Below, in pieces: positions 5,886 to 63,973 of a stretch of 64,000 nucleotides of DNA; position 1 is the stretch's first letter, and each line of letters begins with the position of its first letter. Below the pieces are notes generated by a model. The model made no database searches, had not been told where the DNA came from, and was given only the letters and a program-made list of their open reading frames with translations. The position numbers and the translations under genes are program-made. Source of the stretch: Punctularia strigosozonata HHB-11173 SS5 (taxonomy: Eukaryota; Basidiomycota; Agaricomycetes; Corticiales; Punctulariaceae). Location of the stretch: contig NW_006767433.1 of NCBI RefSeq assembly GCF_000264995.1, forward strand, positions 2,619,074 through 2,683,073, read 5' to 3'.

Positions 5886-6102
5886 TGCTGATGCTCAGGA
5901 GTGTTACTCTCTATTTATCAATGCATATTTTCTATACCCTGATCACATCGCACGCTCTTTCGATCTTTCGGTCTCCGTATCTTAGTATTACCAGTTTTGT
6001 CTCCTTTGCTGTCACGTTTTGGTATATGCAACTACAATTGGATGCCAACCCCATAGACCGACATGACAGAAAACCCAATTCATAGGAGTGGCAGGCACTG
6101 CT

Positions 6103-9100
6103 TCATTCGACACCAGGATTTCCACTCGCTCTCTGCGTCCATTCGATGGCTTTAGCCTTGACAATCTCTGCACCATCTTCATCGCCGATGCTGCGCTCTA
6201 ACTCCAGCCATTTTTTGAAGAAAGATCTAGATAAAATCGGTTAGGAACAGACGATCAAGGGGTTTCAACGGAACTCGCTTCGCTTTGTGACTTGTCATCT
6301 TCTGAGTCAGAACGCGGTCGAAGAGGTTACTATCATATCACAAGTTAGACGCAAGTCGAATATGATGAGCATGTATACGTACCGTAAGCCTTGGATATTG
6401 GACTGTCCAGCTTCCATGTCCATGTATATTGCCCATATATCCCACCGTTTGGAATGCGAGTCTACGATGCCTTCGAAGATGGTCCTGCCTCGCTCTGCAT
6501 CGCCGTATTTATATTCAAGCTGAGCAAACTTGGATATGGTTTTCAGGTCTGGATGTTGCGCTGAGGTTAAGCGTTGTCAGGGTATATAGCAGAGAATACA
6601 CCGACGTTTCCGTTTCTCGAGACTTTGCAGACTACGGGGGAGAAGTTTGCGAGCTTGCTCGTGTTCACCACGTTTCAAATAATGCTCCCCATACAGCGTC
6701 CAAACCTTGGAGCTATGCCCGAACTTCTTCGCTGTCCGCTTGTACTGCTCTTCTGCCATCTATACCGCAGCCGTCAGTCAGACTGTTCAGGGGCAGAGTG
6801 CACGATGATGGCGTACCTCGTGCTTGCCACTTTGGTCGAAAATGGAAGCGAGGCGCAGATGAATGGTCTTCGAGTCGTTGCTGCGAGCGGCTTCCTTGAA
6901 AACACTTTCCAGTGATTCGTCGGTTCCGTAGACATTCTCGAGGTTTAAGAGAGCGATCCACACGTTCAGTTTCTCTTGTTCTTCCCGGAAGTTGATCGTC
7001 CTGAGTGCACGACGCCCTATCTCGCGCGCCCTATCGACCTCCGACATCTGCAGTAGGAACGACATGTACTGTATCCAAAGATAGGACGAGTCTGGTGAAC
7101 TGAGTAAGACTCGCTCGAAGTCAGCGGTAGACTCCGGCATCTTGTTGTGCAGATCGGCAGTCAGATCTTGTTCAATCTGCTTGCGACGTTTTCGTTTCCT
7201 TTGGGTAGCTGATTCATCGTTGTCCTCGTCTGCTGACGACTCCGAGCCCGATTCCTCGTCATGAGTTGCACTATCCTTCGCAGACCATTGAAATCCTCCT
7301 TCGAGCTTGAGAATGAGATCCTTCGGAGCGGATGTAGATTGTTCAGTTGAATAGTCTTGACGTGCATCGTTTGCACCAGTGGTAAGAGCTTCCACATCAA
7401 CTTGCATGGTGTGGTCGGCATCGCTGTCGTTCTCAGCATCGTTATTGAAATGGCTACTCGCGACATCATTCATGTCCTCTTCGGGGGACACGGCCTCTTC
7501 GTCGATGTGACCTTCCGAGAGAATCCCTATGTGACTGCTCGTCTCAGATCCTGATTCATCACCTGACTCGAAATCGGCCTCTGTGAAGTAAGACGGCTTC
7601 AAGCCCAGCGAAATGCGCCGCTTTTCGTGATCGACAGAGAGCACCATAGCTTTCACTTTGTCGCCCTCACGGAAACTACGTAAGGCTAGATTCACGTCCG
7701 CATCCGGGTTATCGGAAATCTGGGAAAGAAGTGACCGACGTTCACAGGACACCGCATAGGACTGCTTACTTGAGTTTTGTGGCACAAGCCGCTCAGTTTG
7801 GATCCTTCTAATTCGATGAAGATGCCGTAGTCTTCGACCTTTTTGACCTTCCCTTCAATTTTTTGACCCTCCGTCAAGTCAGACAGCAAGAGTTTTGTTT
7901 TGGACCCCGAGGATGAACTGACAGAACGGAACGACATTTCCACCTGCTTCTTATCCTGATCGACACTATAGTTCTGTCAGCGACTGTATGACTCGATTCT
8001 TGAGACTGAATCCCACCTAAGTATCCGACCCTTGACGATTTGGTTGGGTGAGAACCGGCTCTTCCAATCCTTGACGTACTGAGAACTAGATTGAGCATCG
8101 CGCGACTCGAATATCGGGATCTGTTCGCATACCTCATCGAACAACTCCCGTATTTGAACACGAGCGTCGATGTTGCGCCCGAGCATGACGTACAAGCCAT
8201 GTTCAGAAACGCTCTTGATAAAACCACGTATCGTTTGTCCGGCTTGCAAATCCGCGATGGCAAGGACCTCGGGGTCTTCTACCGTGTTGTTTGACGTTGG
8301 ATCCATACGAGAGCGCCTCATAGACAATACCAGTTGATTCCGAGACTTATCCACCTCAACTACAACGGCCTTGAGGATGGAATCGACGGCCGGGAACGCG
8401 TTCCCTTCCTCGAAGTTGTCTGTACAATCGGTAGGATGCAGCAAACCGGTGATGCGCGCATTCAGCTTGATCAATGCACCCTTCCTGGTATGTCGAAGAA
8501 CGCGACCACCAACGACCGATCCGACTTCGACGGTATCCATGCTGAGGGCCGAGCCTTGCGTCATGGGGGCCCTAACAACGGGTTTCGTTGCCACGATAAC
8601 AATGCCTTTGTTCGCATTTCGTGACACAACAACCAAGTTGTTCAGCATTTCGCCGGTGACAAGCGAAGCGCGAAGCTGTGAGGCAGAAATGCCTCGGTAA
8701 TTCGCAAGGTTGTTCAGAGATAATAGTCCCTTGGCTTGACTAGGCTTCAAGGACAGGAGCACGTTGTCCTTATGGAGCTCGGCGACAGAGCCAGAGACCA
8801 CATCGCCTACGTTGACATCGGCAACGGGAGATGCAGACTGGGCGTCGACAGCCTGCCGGATGCTGGCAGTGATACGGCCGGTGGCGGGATCCACAGAGAG
8901 GATGCGAACCTTCACAGGCTTGCCGACAGGGATGGTGGCGGATAGATCGACACCCATTATGTCACTGTTCGTGTATCAGAATGATGTATAAGCAGGCCGA
9001 AAGCTACGGACCTTGCTTCTTTGCGGGGTACAAACGCCTTCAGGTTGTTGAAAAACTCAACCTGAAGGCCCTTGTCGGACACACGAAAAATTACAGCGTG

Positions 9101-11271
9101 CGTGACCAATCCAACTATAGCATCTTCCACTTGTTTGACGATTGGAAGCGGAGACTCGACCAGCGTTTTCTTCGCCGTTAACGAGATACGATTCCGTTCA
9201 GGATTGACGGCCAGCACGCGACACTTGATGCTGCCGCCTGGTTTGAACCGCTTTTGAGGATGCTTCAGAGTTATATCTGCATAATGATTTGGCCAAACAA
9301 CGCCATCGACGTTGCCTGAAATCTCCACGAAGAGGGCTGAGTCTGTTAACTTCTTGACGGTTCCCTTGATTACCTCGCCAACCTCCGCATCGCGAACCTG
9401 AATGAACCTCTTCTCGAGAACCGATGGGCGTAAGGATAACTGAAGGAGCCCGTCCAACGCATGGTACCCTGTCACGCGCGCACGGTGAATCGTCGATACC
9501 CGCCAGGGTCCTGATGAACTGGAGAGAGCGGCCACATGATCGTCCGATACTTGGGAGATCTGAGGCATCGTTTCAGACTATACTCTGGGAATTTCTAGGT
9601 GTGACGTACGTGAACATAGCCGTTCGTGTCATCTGAAACCTCGAGCACTAGGCCTCGTTCAGGTTCTACCCGTATCACTTTCGCGGCCTCCAAGGTAGTC
9701 CCGACAGGGAAATCATCCTGCAGAAGTGAAAGCGGTTTTGACGAGCCATCGACCGCAGCAGCTCTGCCTTTCATGCTCAACGTTAAGATGTGTTCGGCTA
9801 ATGATAATGCAAATCGACGGGGACTAGTAGCACTGAGATCGTATAAGATCCTCGCCTTGATTTTGCTACCGTTCTTGTACGTGTCTCCAGGAGTTCCATA
9901 CGGTAAGTGGAAGAGGTCCACGGTCCCCTCAAAGTACCCAAGCACTTGGAGATTCAGGCCGCTCGGCACGACCGCCGTGATCAGGCATTGCACCATGGCA
10001 CCCGGCAGGATAGAGGAAACATTGCTGACCTCCGACAGCTGAACTCCAGGAGTTAGTACATTTGGTGAGAGCAGCAGGCGCGTACTCACCGATACAGAGG
10101 TGAAGACTTCAGGATCTACGGACACCGTGCAAGTTCTACCACTCTTTGCCAAAGAAACGATGTTGACATCGACCACTTGGCCAACACATAAGCCAGCTTC
10201 TGTATTCCAGGGGGCTTGTTTTGCCGCCTCAAAAGAGAGAAACGCGGATATTCCGTCACCCATGCCTAAATCCAAAACGTAGCCGTGATCCTCTACACTT
10301 TTTATTGCCGCAGACAGTGTCTGTATTGCAAAGTCTCAGGCACGAACATGCGGGACTCATTGCATAGAACTCACAAAACCAGGTTTTAAATCAGCCTTGA
10401 CGACGCCAGCATTCACTAGATGCGGGGCTACGCTGAGCTCCACTCTCCGACTGGCCTTCTCGAGGTCTCCTCGGCCTTTCAATCCAAGACCTGTGTTATC
10501 CGTCGTTCCAGGGGTGTGGATTGCTGTGACCACGCAGCGAACGAACTGTCCCACATGAAATATGTCGAATAACTCCGGAATGCGCGGCTTGTGCGGGCGA
10601 GAAGGGCTAGCGCGACTATCGGACTCCATAGCGTCGGATTCTGTCTCATCGCCTTCGTCCATGGCTTCTAAAGCGCTTGTAAGCTGAGAGGATATTTGGG
10701 TGATTGGTATATGTCCCATGAGTTGATTGGGTAGTGAAACTATGAGAGCAAGGGGTTGAACAGCTACTATTTGCCCAAGTATTTTCATCCCCGTAGTGAT
10801 GCGCTGCATTCACGTAAGTTACACGTCAATGAGTCACCGTCAAGCAATGGCTTGCCTTGTAATTGAGATGCTCTACGCGTATTGTATCAGGCTTCGTAGC
10901 TTCCCCGCCTTTCGCCTTGCTTTTGATGGTTGACTTGCGTCCTTTAAGCGACTTTCTCGTGGCTGCCTCCTATAATCACTGATAGATCAGGCAATAGTCC
11001 TAGCCGGCGACGAGCGAAGCATACTGACCTTGAATAGGACTTCGTCTGCCTCCTTCGCTGCTTCGGCGCGGATGGTCTTGACCTCCATCGGAGTCAAGTT
11101 GGTACCACCGCCTCTAGGAAAGTCGACATCTTCTTGGACAAGCAAAGTAGAAGGTTGGTCTGATTTCTCGGTAGCACGTTCAGCCTTCTTATGCGATTCG
11201 TCCAATTTCGCTCGCTTCGGTTTGTTGGACTGGCTGGCTGCGTCCAATTGCCGCTTCTTCGTGTTGGACAT
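6103..11271 (-). CDS. RRP5: rRNA biogenesis protein RRP5 (S1 and HAT repeats)
   Basis: It starts at the ATG at 11269-11271 (MSNTKKRQLDAASQ) with a lysine-rich N-terminus and ends with TGA at 6103-6105. The first two thirds hold a long series of S1 RNA-binding repeats, seen by recurring G-x-V and GL-h-P/LSL patterns (for example VEVGSVVGGRVLRHTRKGA, FVEISGNVDGVVWPNHY). An acidic low-complexity linker lies at about 7150-7560. The C-terminal third carries HAT/TPR-like helices (YLWIQYMSFLLQ, VWTLYGEHYLKRGEHEQAR, SFFKKWLELE). S1 array plus C-terminal HAT repeats is the defining layout of Rrp5/PDCD11, which binds pre-rRNA in the nucleolus and is needed for both 18S and 5.8S/25S processing. Several short introns interrupt it and I see no lesion. 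The start lies 231 bp from the divergent SF3A2 start. Confidence 0.93.
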
Positions 11272-31969: not shown

Positions 31970-34900
31970 TCAGTTCCACATCCTGCCCTTGCAGTTCCTT
32001 GACCCGCATCGGCAGCGGATATAGATGCCATCGGTAGGCTGCTCTTTAACCTCCTCCTCTTCCTGTTTCCGGAGTTTGATTAGCGTTGGGCTACAATCGA
32101 TGTCAACGCAATGATCTCACGTCGTCGTCTCCCGGTACACCGGTATACGAGAAACAGATTTCCTCGTGAGGTTTGATGTTCTTCAGCGCGAAAAAGGTCA
32201 AGAGCGGCTTGTCGATATTGGCCTCGTTGATGTAGCACGGGACAATCACCACGTTCGGGTCGCACGAGTGGTTCTGAAAGGCTGGCGTGAGCATGAACAA
32301 CGAAGAGGTCATGCACGGAGCGTACTATGAACCGAGTAAACTAAGTATATCGTAGAGTGAGTCGATCTCGGCTGGCAAGAAAGCGGACCATGCACGCACG
32401 TTGCCTGCGTGGAAGGCGTCATAGACATATATGGACTCCCACGTCAGCGGGTCCGGACCTTTGAGATACCAAAAGTCGATATCGAACAGGTACGTCCGGC
32501 CAAACTTGTTATAGAGCCTCGAAGGGATGGCAGGGTCGGTCTAGCGTGAGGCGGGGGACGAAGGAGCAAGCTCACCGGCCTCGCTCCTCGCCCTCTTCGT
32601 TGGTGAGCAGTTCGCCGGCGTACGTCCCGATGTACGTCCCGGCGGGGATAGCCTTGGAATCCGCGAAAACGCCCCATCCTTTCCTAGGCGTCTGTCGAAC
32701 AACGAGTCAGCGAAGGCCCGCAACATCCAACAAGGTCGAGCCACCCGCCTTCATGATATTCAGGGCAACCTTTCTGCCATGCTGGACCACCTGAACCAAA
32801 GGATGAGAGGCGGAGCTTACGATGTGTCCCTACGCGTACCCGATTTTTGCACTCGTCGTAGCAGGCGCACCGATAGTTGCACTCGAATATAGGGTACTCG
32901 TGCATGTCCTGCGCATATTGAGCAGAGGTACTTCATGTGTGCGCAGTAAAACTCGCCTTCTTGAGCCTGCCGTTATCCTGATACATGAAGCCCTTGAGCC
33001 CCGAATTCTTCGTCATCTCGTGCTGCCGCTTGAGGCACGAGCATGTTATGGAATTTGGGTCACAGTATGGCTCACAGCTGCACCCCACCAGGCTGTCCGT
33101 GTCAAGAGGCGGAACATCCTTCCCATGCCAGATCCTGTTCGAATAATGGAATTCCGCTCGTGGCACCGGTTGGTTGTCGACGTTGTTCACGACCTGGATG
33201 ACCGGTGCTCTTGGCTCGTCTGTCGTCCCCGTGAGAATGTTTGTAGTGAAAATCGAGCGCAGCACAGACGGTATGCGCATGTATTTGGGCATCTGAGTCA
33301 TATACTTTTCGACTTCCCATTTCAGCTCGTGCGCAAAGTAAGTCTTGGGCCTCAACAGCTCCCTGGCCGCCTTTGAATCGATGACGGCAACAATGTGTGA
33401 AGGCAGCTTTCGACCCTCCCAAAAATCTTTAACCTCGGCGGATTTGACAACAGCAATTTGCGGACGAGAGGGCACACGCTTCGCAGCCCGTTCGTTTGAT
33501 TTTGGCCGAAAGGACTCCGACGAGCGTGCAATCAACTTCTGGGCGTTTCTCTTGGAACGCCTCGGTGGCAAGGGAGCTTCAGAAGGCAAGGAGCGTGACG
33601 AGGTCTCCGAAGTATTCTACACGCGGTTAGACTCCTATCATCCCTAAGATAAAAGAATCTTGCCTCAGGCATGTCTTGCAGTGAGACAGGCTCCGAATCG
33701 ACATCAAGCAGCGAGGTTTCCGTGGAGACCTATACGAGGTCAGACTCTCGGCATGACGCGCAATGGAAATTTGGGGCTCGCCTGAGGTCTGTCTGGCAAT
33801 GAGACAGAGTCCCGATCAATGTCACGCGGGGAGGCTTCCGTAGAGACCTACGCGGGTTGAGATGCAAGCACCGGATAGCGAATTTAAGCTTGCCTGAGGC
33901 TCATCCGGCAACGGAACAAATTGCAGGGGGTGGATGCCTTGTGAAGGCACGTTCGAAGACACCTGTGGGAGGTGATTGATACCTTCAGCAGCTAAAGCAA
34001 AGAATCATAGCTCACGTCAGGCATGTCTGGCAATGGAACGATATCCTCATGAGCGTCATGCAAGTTTTCGAGCGGGTCCTGTAGAATGTGAGTTTCTCTA
34101 GAGACAGCAGAAAATCTGGACTTGCGTCAGGCGTGTCGGGCAAAGGAAGAAATTCCAGATCACCGTCATACAAGATTTTGTCGGACGAGCCCTAGTCGAG
34201 ATAAATATGTCAATAACAGATCGGAGTGAAAACTCACCTTGGGTATATCTGGTGACAGAAACGTTCCCTGTGGCACATCAAAGGAGGCATCCGAGGCGTC
34301 TTGCCCCGCATCTTTCTCGTCCTCAGTCGGCGGATAGTGCAAGATCGCATCTTCTCCTTCCGATGCGGAGGCGACAGGCTCCGACGGGACGGGGAGCATC
34401 CCTCTTCCCTCCGAGGTTGTCAGTGATGAGCCCTCTTGCGCAGAATTGGCAGCGACATCAGTTAGAACGCTGGGCTCCTCAAGAGGACGAGATTCTTGCT
34501 GAATATCACCGCCGCGAACCGGGCTTCGTTCCGTATCGACACGCTCCGAAGTCAACGCCCGATGCACTGCCAAGCTGGACGGAACCTGCGGGGTTTGAAT
34601 CCGCGCACGCGGTGCGCCATCCCTGTCAAACCTCCGGTGACTACTCATGGTCGACAGCATGCTACACAAAGAGCTGAAGATATCATGATCAAATGACAAG
34701 ATCCAGGAACGACGTACCCTTGCAATGCATGCGTACTTTTCCAGGCATCCGTTCCCGGTATGTCTGACAACGAAGACTTCGATTCAGACGATCCGGAATC
34801 CGAATCCGAATCCAAAGTGAGGTCAATCACAAATCCTGGTCTCGCCCCCAGCAACGTGTGCGGGTCTTGCGCAGGAGGTGCAGGGGTAGCGCCAGTTGTG

Positions 34901-36700: not shown

Positions 36701-36949
36701 GTGTAGCGGGTAACGTCGAGAGCCTATGCCCTGGCTGAAATCGACCCTCAATGGTTGGCGAGCGCCTTTACGATGAAGACCTTGGGGTTTCGGCTTCTTC
36801 AAGTCCAAGTGCAACACTGGAGCCGAGGACTCGCACCGTAAGCTTTTGGTGTAAGGTGCACGTTGTACTGGAAGAGATGAAAATGCCGGAACCGTGGCTG
36901 ATATATGCTCAGCCACACCCGCCCGCTGCTTGTCCTCCGAACCATCTTC

Positions 36950-39900
36950 ATGACGGCAAAGACCCATCAACCATCGTCTAAGGTATACTCACGAGCGCTG
37001 CCATTGGTATCGCAAACTGAATTGTTCCCCAGTTTTACGTGGAAGATGTCGTCCATCGTAATGGAGCACCGCAGGACTACGGTATAATAACCGTGAGTAT
37101 CCATCCATCGCACGCGAACTCAGCTTTACTCTTTCCGTTATTCACAGAGGTCCTGGAGTAATGAAGAAGAACTCCCTTTGGAGGGAGAGGACTCCGATGA
37201 TCCCTTCCTGCGCCCGCTTCAAAATGGTGAAGTCGGCGTAACGTGGGCGCATCCGTCTGGACGCGACATTGTTCACGAATCGGAACTCGTTCTTGTGGAT
37301 CGAGCTTTCGGACCCGGAGATCTGTGCAAACGCAATATAGACGACATACCCTCAGGGATAATCACGAACGTGGACTGCAGAGTCCTGCTTTGTCACGCCG
37401 TTGATGAGACGCCAATAGAAGGCTGGAAAACTATGGAAGAGCTTGAGGATCCGCAGGATGTTGAACTTGGCGATTTCGTGGTGCATGCCGATTGGATAGG
37501 ACAGGTAAGCCACGAACAACAGCCAACCCCGATGTACCCAATCTGAAGATATTTGCCAATCAGATCGTCGAGGTATGTATCACTAGCACTTCCACGCGTT
37601 CGACTCCTCACCCTCGTTAAAGATGTTCGATGAAGCTATTGTTCAAGTCGAAGGAAGCCGCCGCCTTGTGCGCGTCCCCGAACTCAGTGCACATCTCATG
37701 GTTGGCGACAAGGGAAAGGTGCGTGCGTGGATATTGCTAACGTGGCTCAAGCTGACGTTACATTCATAGGATATTTTGCCGGAGCCCGCGTTCATGTTAC
37801 CTATGTTCGGTCTTCATACACCAATGCCCAGACCGGCAGAAACAGATACAGTTCTGGACGTCAAGCATACTGTCCTAGCAGTCTCGTGGCTTGCTATCAA
37901 TCAATCGGTCCGTTGTCTCTGGTTTCTTCAAAGATTAAGTCCGACGCAGTTTGCAAAAAGTTAGATCCACTCCATGCAGCTCAAAAGCCACGCCCACCTC
38001 GGTTCTGGTACGGGAACACATTGTCGCAGTTGACGTTGGTACGGTTGCGGTCAGATTGCACGCCGAGGCGTGGTGATAGAGTTCATCTGAAAGACAGCTC
38101 CCTCGTCCCTATCACCAAGCACGGAGAAGGAGATCCCAACGGTCCTATTGAGGTCAATACCTTGATGGTGCAAGACATCAGGACAAATGTTGACGTGCTG
38201 TGGCAAGACGGGTCCAGTCAACGAAATGTCCCGTCGACTTCATTGGTGCCATACCTGAACCCAAGCGATACCGACGCGTGGTGAGTGCTGAAAGGATTGT
38301 CCTGTTTCAGATTGCCGATGCTGTTGATGTCAGGCCTGGAGATTACGTCCTATGGAAATGCGAAGGTCACAGTCGACCGGCGGTTGTTCAATCCGTCAAT
38401 GCCGTGGACCGGACTTGCATCGTGCGCTATATGGACGATCATACCCAAGACTTGGCATCGTTGCTTGAGTTAGATGCATACGGCATTGACGACCCTTCTG
38501 GTCCCATGTCTTCCTCGCATGAAGGACTTGGTTTGAGCCGCGGCGATCTTGTCCTCATTCATCGGGAAGGGACGACCAATGGAGCAGGGAGCTTCAGAGT
38601 GCCGAAGATTGGCGAAGTTGAAGATTGGGCTAGGGAGCCTCCGGAACTGGATGAGGACGGACAGCTGGTCGGGTGGCGAGCAGAGATGTATGGCATTGGC
38701 GTCAGCCTCGCGAAGCAAGGCGGAGCGGCAGTTCATCGTGATGGTCAAGTAACATCGAGTAAATGCTACGATGGATCACTCAATTGGCTTGGTGAAGTGA
38801 TGGATGTTCGTGCATAAACACCTGCGTCATAAGCCCTCCCGCTCATGATCTGCCTCGTTTTACAGCTGCGTCTGGATGGTAGCGTTGAAGTTGGATTGCC
38901 TGATCGTACGGCCGCGGTGTTTCCCTTGGAACGTCTTACAAAGCTCTACGACGGCATGGATCAACTGGACGACATGTTCGATGACGGCCTTTCCATCCAT
39001 TCCTCCGAAGACGACGGCAACGACATCCAAGTGATGGATTCCAACGGACAGTGGGCGGACGTGAACGAGGACGAGGACGGCTGGGAGGATGAAATGGACG
39101 TTGACTCCATAGAGGACAAAGAGACGTCCTCGATACCTGAACCTGCTGCGGCACCCACATTTTCAAAGAGGGACAGCGAGCAGGAGCCAATAGAAACGCC
39201 TTCCGACAAGACACGATCAGAGCAGTCTCAACTGACCACACCTGACGATGATATAACCAACTGGACCCGTTTCGCGCTTCTTCCGTCTGCCCCAGCTGAT
39301 CACGCTTTCTATACGACTACTCCGGGACAACCATCTAGGCACTTTCTCTCGAGGCTTGCAAAAGAATATAGAGTGTTATCCAGCAGTTTACCAGGTGCGC
39401 GCGAATTGCCAGTGGCAAGATGTTAGCCTGATCAGATTTTAGACACTATACTCGTCCGAGCGTATGAAGACCGTACTGATCTTCTGCGGACGTTGATCAT
39501 TGGTCCTGAGAATACACCATACGAAGATGCCCCCTTTGTGATCGACTGGATGTTGGAATCAGATTTTCCTCAATCACCGCCGAAAGCGCATTTTCTGAGC
39601 TGGACCCATGGGAACGGAAGAGGTGCGCGCGAACTGGTTTTTCTTGGCTGTGTTACTCTATGTTGATATTTTCTCCCCAGTAAATCCGTGAGTGTCGCCA
39701 CTTCTTTCGTCGATCGTCGTTTCTCATCATGCACCGTCAGCAATCTCTACGAGGAGGGGAAAGTTTGCTTGAGCATCCTTGGGACGTGGTCGGGAGACAA
39801 GACCGAGACCTGGAGCCCCGCCAGGTCATCTTTGCTTCAAGCCCTGGTTTCAATACAGGGCTTAGTGCTGGTTAAAGAGCCGTGAGCACTGACATTGATC

Positions 39901-40341
39901 CCTTTCAGAAGCATGCTGATGGTGTATCCGCTAGCTGGTTCTGCGAGCCTGCGTATGAGAAACTCAGGGGAACCGAAGAAGGTTCGGTTAGCAGGTAACC
40001 AGTTGATAAATAACTTGGATCACTGGAGGCTTATTACCAGTTATAGCCGTCTTTACAGCGAGAAAGCATACGTGCTTTCCCGAGGCTTTGTCCGTCGTGC
40101 TCTCGAGTTGCCACCTACCGGCTTGGAGACCGAAATAAACTGGTTATACCGCAAGAAGGGGAAGCTTGAAAAAGTCATCCAAGATGCTCGAACGCTTGTC
40201 GATAAAAGCAAGTCGTCGATACCACCGACGGAGAAGGAGAATGACCGCGCGGTTGCACGCTTGACAGAAGGAGGGATCATCGCCTTGAACCGCGTTCTGG
40301 TCAAGCTAGTTGCTCAGGCAGACCAACCGAGGTCCATCTGA
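36950..40341 (+). CDS. UBE2O: UBE2O-type E2/E3 hybrid ubiquitin-conjugating enzyme
   Basis: The first exon ([11 protein letters not shown], 36950-36982) splices to [11 protein letters not shown] at 37033. Several SH3-like/CR blocks follow ([71 protein letters not shown]) and an acidic linker with coiled-coil tendency. A C-terminal UBC fold carries [31 protein letters not shown] and the active-site Cys in [24 protein letters not shown]2O is a large E2 that also acts as its own E3 on orphan ribosomal and other proteins. About a dozen short introns are needed; one (donor GTGAGT, acceptor GATGTCAG) joins DTDAW to PGDYV. The stop is TGA at 40339-40341. The active-site region is complete. Confidence 0.88.
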
Positions 40342-61859: not shown

Positions 61860-63973
61860 TTAAGCTCGTACGATGTATGGTTTCAGTTCGGCAGGAAAGG
61901 ACATGGGCGGGAGACGAAGAGCTGCTGGCGGCAACATGCCGCGCGATACTGCGTCTGCTGGGTTCGCCTCCGACGCGATGTACTCTAGGTCTAGCGTAAC
62001 GTTCGTGCTGTCCAAAACTACGCCTGCCCTCCGAATCGCTAGGTTCATCTCGGGATTCGGGGAGCGTCCCTTCTCGAACGCACCAATTGCGGCCTGGCTG
62101 TCGGACCAGAGCCGCATCCAGCAGTCCGTCAAGCCTCCCTCCTCCAACGCGTACACGGCGAGTTCGATGGCCAAGCATTCCAGCCAGGTGTTGTGTCTGA
62201 TACGATCTGGGCTCCAGGAATCTGTGAGTCGCCACGCATCCCATTTGTCGCCCAATACTATCCCTATCCCCCAATCCGTTGAGGCATCTACGTAGAGACC
62301 GACCTCTTGGAGGTCGCGCCGTTGCACCAACGGGCGCGACACGTTCGGCTTCGCAAGCTCGAGGTCCCACCAATGTAGCGCATTCTTGATAGCCCCGGGA
62401 AGCCGGAGCTTGCGCCATTTGTTGTTCTTGAAGAGGGACGAAAAGTTCGAGAGGGCCGGTAGGCGCGTGCGCCCTGCTGGGTAGACGAAAGTGATGTGAC
62501 ATAGGGATCCGTGGATAGCTTGAATGTCATGCAGAGTACAGCCGGCGTTGTCGAAAGATGCGAGGAAGACGCGGACCCTCGAGCGGAATTTCTTGCGTTT
62601 CGTGTCCGTGAGTGATACAGTGCGGTTGGTGTAGTCCCACCAGAAACCTATGTGCTCGAACTCGGAGGCGAACTTCGTGAGTTTGGCCATCTTCCATGGG
62701 ATCTTCAGTGGCGCGACACTGCGGGAGACCGTATCTTCGTCGTAGTAGTAGCTGTGAGTGTCGATGCGAGCTAGGTTGGAAACTATGGGGGACCGGCTGA
62801 CGGAAAAGTCGTCCTCGTACTTGGACACTGGCCCGATGTCGAGTGCTTCCCAGATGTCGGCGATTGCATTTGCGATCATGCCCGCGTTGCTGCTGGAGGC
62901 TGCGCATCCGAATGGGCATGCATGGTCGATGAAAAAGGTGTTGTCTGGTCCTCGGACCACGAACCACGGTTTGTGCGCAGGTGCAATTGGACAGGTGCGG
63001 TGAAAGGCCTCGATGTCTAAAGTCATCGATTGTGACCCAGCTGGCGCCCTCGCAATCTACCATTGCTGCGTCAGCCGTCGCCTATCATCTCACAACTCGT
63101 CTGTGCCCAATCGTCTCGAGTCGACACGTCCAACTGGCGGCCAAACACGGTGCATGCTCCTATGGCAGCGACGGGCATGCTCCTATGGCAGCGACGGGCA
63201 TGCTCCTATGGCAGCGACGGGCATGCTCCTATGGCAGCGACGGGCAGGCTCCTATGGCCGCAACACGATGCGGGCTCCTATGGCCACGACATGCGGTGTG
63301 AAAGCCTGGCGACTGGCTCCTATGGCGCAGTGCCCCTCGCACCCAATATGGGCCGGAACGCGACGTATGTCGCAACAAAATGTGCATGACTTACAATGTC
63401 TGCGAGGTCTCGAGCGGTGCTGAAGTGTGTCGGGAAATCTTCTTTACTGATGTGGTCGTTGACGGACGGGATGCCAAGGTTTGCGTCGCCTTTTGAGAGA
63501 TGGCGACAGACTCGATACTTGATCTTGTCGTCGCTGGTGTAGGATGTTGCAATGAGTAGAGGTGAGGACATGAATGGTCCGCGCAGGATGCGCTCGCAGT
63601 CTACTTGTGTGAATGGTCCTGAGAAACGGCCAGCGGCGCATTCTTCGTGTATGTAGTGCCGGATAACGTCGGGATGGTCATCGCAAGATCTGTGATTGTT
63701 GAGAATCACTGTCGAGGTCAGCAGAGGGAAGTCTCCCATCGGGAAACCCTGCTTCAAGAAACGGATCAAGTACGGATAAGCCTCTGCCAACCGATGGTTG
63801 GCCAGGAAGGAGTCGAAAGCATCAGAGTCGTAGGGTGTGACAATCTTCTCGAAGATAGCGTCGTCAAGAGGGTGGGAGCTCTGCAGGCGTGAGCGGGGTA
63901 TCATCTTCGAGGACAAATCTGGCTGCGGCTTAGCGCGAAGTCCCCGCCTTATCAGGGGGAGCTTGGCAATCAA
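61860..63973 (-). mobile_element. Reverse transcriptase and RNase H part of the Ngaro-like element
   Basis: RT-like segments include HPLDDAIFEKIVTPYD, HLSKGDANLGIPSVND and LDIEAFHRTCPIAP; the polymerase region continues through FGCAASSSNAG and KYEDDFSVS, and an RNase H-like region follows with VGLYVDASTDWGIG, CLAIELAVYAL and RLWSDSQAAIGAF. This RT/RNase H arrangement without integrase is the pattern of DIRS/Ngaro elements. The part appears broken, with about one interruption inside the window, near the minisatellite. The far upstream end is outside the window. Confidence 0.8.
63151..63330. repeat. Minisatellite, 23-bp unit, inside the retroelement
   Basis: Seven copies of the core GCTCCTATGG occur. 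The first four (63151-63241) are near-perfect 22-23 bp units with GCTCCTATGGCAGCGAC; the next three are degenerate and wider spaced (about 63249, 63273, 63315). It lies between RT segments of the element. Confidence 0.88.

Follow-up and report, generated by a model that had tools for sequence, protein, structure and literature searches.

A tandem array of short phase-0 exons with clustered predicted GC-AG introns in a probable Clr4/SUV39-type methyltransferase gene of Punctularia strigosozonata

Results

The methyltransferase gene

The window analyzed here is a 64,000-nucleotide stretch of Punctularia strigosozonata HHB-11173 SS5 (contig NW_006767433.1, positions 2,619,074 to 2,683,073). On its minus strand lies a predicted methyltransferase gene, whose features outside the exon array include the following:

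37056-31970, minus strand: predicted methyltransferase gene (Clr4/DIM-5/SUV39-like), 21 introns, 5′ end uncertain (gene finder, Pfam, Clr4 match)
33616-32957, minus strand: exon encoding N-SET and most of Pre-SET, starting NTSETSS
32956-32909, minus strand: GC-AG intron in the Pre-SET part, AAG/GCGAGT, 48 nt (finder and Clr4 alignment)
32748-32692, minus strand: GC-AG intron at the start of SET, AAG/GCGGGT, 57 nt (finder and Clr4 alignment)
32340-32326, minus strand: micro-exon FTRFI, 15 nt, in the SET domain just ahead of NHSCDPN (finder and gap-free Clr4 alignment)

Pfam analysis of the spliced protein identified Pre-SET (PF05033, 59.0 bits, cut-off 29.1) and SET (PF00856, 77.9 bits, cut-off 22.4). 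The closest match is S. pombe Clr4 (1mvh, Cryptic loci regulator 4, E = 1.9e-49; 6z2a, E = 2e-50), and other matches include DIM-5 (1ml9, E = 2.3e-36) and SUV39H2 (E = 3.7e-34). The Clr4 alignment covers residues 119-404 of the 406-residue C-terminal part and runs through the post-SET, with both the post-SET motif CRCGSRNCKG and the NHSCDPN motif aligned. The product is a probable Clr4/SUV39-type H3K9 (heterochromatin) methyltransferase, in agreement with a preliminary description of this DNA that had read the gene as a SET methyltransferase. A Pfam search at E up to 1 gave no chromodomain for the predicted protein. The chromodomain is also absent from DIM-5 and the Cryptococcus neoformans homologue (PMC10135481), so it is not required of fungal members. 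Across the 33.6-Mb genome, this gene gave the only Pre-SET match, in a search that intron-split genes could escape, and 13 SET matches were listed.

The two GC-AG introns in the catalytic part, which the preliminary description did not mention, have homology support because the spliced protein aligns to Clr4 across both. The alignment is gap-free at the 32748 junction and has a one-residue gap four residues past the 32956 junction. Homology support for GC splicing is limited to these two donors. The FTRFI micro-exon is flanked by introns of 59 and 52 nt.

The start of a predicted plus-strand gene (36905-40341) overlaps the methyltransferase gene at its predicted 5′ end; the two genes are divergent, and both predicted starts are provisional. 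The methyltransferase gene was missing from the final gene set of the initial finder run, apparently because of a ~150 bp overlap with a higher-scoring plus-strand prediction.

Layout of the exon array

Five consecutive phase-0 exons of 66, 63, 69, 66, and 66 nt make up an array spanning 34191-33617 on the minus strand. Every exon ends in L[P/Q]DxP plus one residue (5/5). The introns after units 1-5 measure 47, 53, 46, 52, and 47 nt, with a GT donor in one of five and a GC donor in the other four (GCAAGT, GCAAGC, GCGAGC, GCAAGA).

34237-34192, minus strand: intron preceding the array, GT-AG, 46 nt (predicted)
34191-34126, minus strand: unit 1 exon, 66 nt, phase 0, ends LPLPDTPD, GSSDKILYDGDLEFLPLPDTPD
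34125-34079, minus strand: intron after unit 1, GC-AG (GAC/GCAAGT), 47 nt (predicted)
34078-34016, minus strand: unit 2 exon, 63 nt, phase 0, ends VPLPDMPD, DPLENLHDAHEDIVPLPDMPD
34015-33963, minus strand: intron after unit 2, GT-AG, 53 nt (predicted)
33962-33894, minus strand: unit 3 exon, 69 nt, phase 0, ends VPLPDEPQ, VSSNVPSQGIHPLQFVPLPDEPQ
33893-33848, minus strand: intron after unit 3, GC-AG (CAG/GCAAGC), 46 nt (predicted)
33847-33782, minus strand: unit 4 exon, 66 nt, phase 0, ends VSLPDRPQ, VSTEASPRDIDRDSVSLPDRPQ
33781-33730, minus strand: intron after unit 4, GC-AG (CAG/GCGAGC), 52 nt (predicted)
33729-33664, minus strand: unit 5 exon, 66 nt, phase 0, ends VSLQDMPE, VSTETSLLDVDSEPVSLQDMPE
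33663-33617, minus strand: intron after unit 5, GC-AG (GAG/GCAAGA), 47 nt (predicted)

This layout confirms the junctions and phases of the five phase-0 mini-exons (21-23 codons, ending LPD/LQD-x-P) given in the preliminary description, which had located the array at 33617-34125 but omitted its first exon and left the strand unstated. The exon upstream of the 34237-34192 intron ends FLSPDIPK and, judged by eye, is possibly a degenerate unit. At the other end, the NTSETSS start of the 33616-32957 exon is similar by eye to the starts of units 4 and 5.

Gene-finder test of the junctions

We built a self-trained gene finder for this analysis, combining a coding Markov model with donor, branch, acceptor, and length models. 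The initial model was seeded from 7 introns at the threshold kept, and re-estimation took four rounds over 232,262 bases outside the window (30 loci, 436 GT introns), beginning from a model that had seen the window and with hand-set intron and gene-start penalties. All scores are in natural-log units; GC donors were given a prior of 1% or 3%, and GA and GG donors served as controls.

Without hints, the locus scored 56.9 with GT donors only versus 72.1 (1% prior) and 78.7 (3%) with GT and GC, a net gain of +15.2 natural-log units at the 1% prior. Neither control gained anything, GT with GA and GT with GG both scoring 56.9 at either prior. With homology hints on the Clr4-aligned part, the scores were 303.6 for GT only and 322.1 and 328.7 for GT with GC. 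The corresponding GA scores were 303.6-303.7, and GG reached 305.0 and 306.1 through a gain at 32745, in the SET part and outside the array. Hinted or not, the best parse uses exactly the four array GC donors together with those at 32956 and 32748, and GT-only parsing splits the locus into three predicted genes. The GC donors are the best parse of the array, which bears out the earlier reading that four of the five following introns, 46-53 nt long, begin with GC. By sequence and score, the four array introns concerned match the GC-AG type, with a GC donor, an AG acceptor, a U2-type consensus, and a branch site.

A run trained with five loci overlapping the window (L034-L038) favored GC only slightly (124.3 vs 123.2). 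It took the GC donors at 34125, 33893, and 32748 and left out the last two in the array. The score fell by 0 to 0.67 log units when any one GC donor was dropped, so that single donors were weakly supported. The initial run, with the window in training, called GC in 19/588 introns, GA in 2/571, and GG in 2/572. An extra intron at 33088-33029 in an early model, which would delete conserved Pre-SET cysteines, was absent after re-estimation.

Frequency and strength of GC donors

GC donors average 1.009% of annotated fungal introns in Table 1 of PMC7072748, in line with the figure of about a percent assumed at the outset; the rates for this genome derive from our ab initio finder. In a comparison run of 150 predicted genes, the methyltransferase gene has 6 GC donors among 21 predicted introns, against 16/561 (2.9%) elsewhere and a maximum of two in any other predicted gene. 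One gene in the window, predicted at 6102-11271 on the minus strand, has two GC donors in 14 introns, at 6278 and 10855 (both positions from the initial run). Outside the window, GC was called in 12/448 introns at the 1% prior and 18/458 at 3%; GA and GG gave 1/435 and 3/438 at the same 1% prior. Among genes scoring >30, the counts were 5/305 for GC, 1/308 for GA, and 2/303 for GG. Since the controls also yield calls, some GC calls are false, and the local GC background is probably ~1-3%.

The binomial probability of at least 6 in 21 at 2.9% is 2e-5, though this treats the introns of the array as independent, which they are not. Outside the array, the same gene has two GC donors in 15 introns (P = 0.07); therefore, the excess rests mainly on the array, and duplication can account for the array's share of it. 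The cluster of GC donors in a tandem exon array is an uncommon combination of two known phenomena.

At positions other than the GC itself, the array GC donors fall in the 62nd-86th percentile of 545 predicted GT donors. They score 5.1-5.9, and the 16 GC donors predicted elsewhere have quartiles of 5.7-6.9, a comparison that is biased because only strong GC donors get called at all. The earlier view of these sites as weak donors is not borne out at the positions other than the GC, where they rank well among GT donors; they are low only among GC donors. Three of the four have no GT within -15 to +20. A search with the Rfam U1 model, bearing on the idea of an altered U1 snRNA, returned no match at E up to 1, with 41 of 534 genome candidates scored.

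Duplication history of the units

Short internal exons are themselves common here: 98 of 337 internal exons measure ≤69 nt, and 17 of 337 are additionally phase 0 on both sides. The rarity lies in the mutual similarity of the array exons. Among 142 adjacent pairs of short internal exons in 150 predicted genes, the two top alignment scores both come from the array (units 4-5, 47; units 1-2, 44), with 23 as the best score outside it. The scores of units 2-3 (18) and 3-4 (14) are ordinary, and these two pairs are linked by their shared motif and phase. The motif [LIVM][PQ]D.P occurs five times in the methyltransferase and once each in two of 135 other proteins examined. That tandem exon duplication produced the array is well supported by these comparisons.

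The introns may have traveled with the exons. Between-unit intron similarity is marginal and close to background: the best of 15 pairs (3 and 5) is equalled by 1% of random intron pairs, and the next two by 2.5% and 4.2%. In a tree of the units, unit 1 (GC) clusters with unit 2 (GT) with a support of 97, and the remaining nodes have 34 and 43. Because of this grouping, one GC gain followed by one reversal is as short a history as two gains. Descent of the array GC donors from a single GC-bearing unit is possible. The preliminary description had proposed that one exon-intron unit already carrying a GC donor was copied; tandem duplication stands, with array pairs topping the 142, and the single GC ancestor does not follow, given histories of equal cost.

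Between units 4 and 5, the exon sequence is different at 17 of 66 positions. Over the whole exon, pN is lower than pS in nine of ten unit pairs, and over the last nine codons in all ten, with several of the nine-codon differences small (for units 4-5, 0.22 vs 0.23). Whole-exon pN/pS ranges from 0.48 to 1.06, and the unit as a whole is accordingly not under strong selection. Since the introns are near background, units 4 and 5 have diverged, and pN is below pS over the last nine codons, the duplications look old and the L[P/Q]DxP motif is probably under selection.

No further unit copies were found in the genome by DNA search, and by protein search all five matches were the array itself. An origin from mobile introns (introners) was considered and set aside, as the array has no second copy at the DNA level, in a search that short diverged introns could escape. 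A search of one open-licence paper library yielded no precedent for tandem duplicated exons with GC donors or, judging from titles and the opening lines of abstracts, for a fungal exon array. Elsewhere in the window, a tandem repeat at 63147-63258 has a 23-bp unit in 4.8 copies with 97% matches.

Discussion

We propose, with a probability of about 0.7 for the account as a whole, that tandem exon duplication built the array, that its GC-AG introns are removed constitutively, and that all units are kept as a docking stretch. The starting point would have been a short exon in phase 0, copied in tandem several times, probably together with the intron, in the long region N-terminal to the catalytic part of this probable Clr4/SUV39-type H3K9 enzyme. 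Each duplicate would have added one unit of 21-23 residues ending in the hydrophobic-acidic L[P/Q]DxP motif. With exon lengths divisible by three and introns in phase 0, the frame would have stayed intact at each copy. The predicted introns are short and U2-like (46-53 nt), four with a GC donor and an otherwise good consensus, and most probably all are spliced out constitutively. The resulting protein, carrying every unit, may act as a multivalent docking stretch. A PDB search at E up to 10 returned nothing for the putative docking stretch, and no Pfam domain falls in the array region. An array of SUMO-interacting motifs was rejected: a strict ad hoc pattern matches only units 2 and 5, the unit 5 match lies away from the L[P/Q]DxP end, and four further matches lie upstream in the protein. 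In total, the pattern occurs six times in the 1,329 aa methyltransferase versus 101 times in 55,412 aa of other predicted proteins.

The competing readings concern chiefly how the array is spliced, and we think constitutive splicing is the likeliest, followed by intron retention as a dimmer and then by optional units. Constitutive splicing ranks first because fungal alternative splicing is mostly retention and retention here gives stops before SET. Retention makes up 43% of coding-region events in Schizophyllum (PMC5034255), and retained introns predominate in the fungi surveyed in PMC2397502. Regulatory retention, in which inefficient GC donors would leave introns in place and lower the amount of methyltransferase through nonsense-mediated decay or truncation, is unlikely. 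Compared with other GC donors, those of the array are rather weak, and each of the 63 retention combinations of the six array-region introns (the five and the preceding one) leads to a stop before SET; short introns of most other genes would presumably also yield stops if retained, so this is not special. Optional inclusion, as the preliminary description had suggested, would have the spliceosome skip units, giving transcripts with different numbers of L[P/Q]DxP motifs. All five exons are symmetrical, and skipping any one of them, or all five, leaves the reading frame open; duplication alone explains this symmetry, however. In human and mouse, genes containing GC-AG introns undergo alternative splicing more readily (PMC7242645), yet exon skipping accounts for 1% of coding-region events in S. 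commune (PMC5034255), and cassette exons make up a fraction of 0.02 in C. neoformans (PMC2397502, Table 3). With exon skipping this rare in these two fungi and the donors not weak outside the GC, optional inclusion is improbable.

A stronger functional version, in which the mini-exon array is a splicing rheostat and spliceosome efficiency determines how many docking motifs the protein carries or how much full-length enzyme is made, strikes us as a long shot; if true, it would link splicing efficiency to heterochromatin level. It is very improbable that the junctions themselves are wrong and that the region is a 5′ leader or part of another gene upstream, with the SET gene starting at an internal ATG. 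The three genes of the GT-only finder, one beginning at 33292, would fit such an arrangement. That parse, however, falls short by 15-25 log units across the four settings compared, separates Pre-SET from SET, contrary to the Clr4 alignment, and leaves the repeated open exons unexplained.

The array has parallels in known systems. As in other tandem exon duplications, adjacent symmetrical exons of common origin lie within one gene, but here the units are five, very short, in a fungus, and four are followed by GC-AG introns. The introns resemble other U2-type GC-AG introns in pairing a GC donor and otherwise good consensus with an AG acceptor; unlike them, four occur in a 575-bp array and six are predicted in one gene. 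Schistosome micro-exon genes also contain runs of short symmetrical exons; they differ in being known for exon skipping and secreted products. The Pre-SET, SET, and post-SET of Clr4, DIM-5, and SUV39H methyltransferases are all present here, but ~900 residues precede the aligned part, holding the array, and no chromodomain was found. A long region ahead of SET is shared with the C. neoformans Clr4 homologue, for which a review gives a SET only, preceded by ~1,400 disordered residues (PMC10135481).

Gene finders limited to GT donors fragment this methyltransferase gene and lose the motif array, and annotated orthologues may therefore be wrong in the same way. The locus would offer a natural test of how GC donors originate and persist in duplicated introns, and also of evolutionary change in the disordered regions of fungal H3K9 methyltransferases, which are poorly understood.
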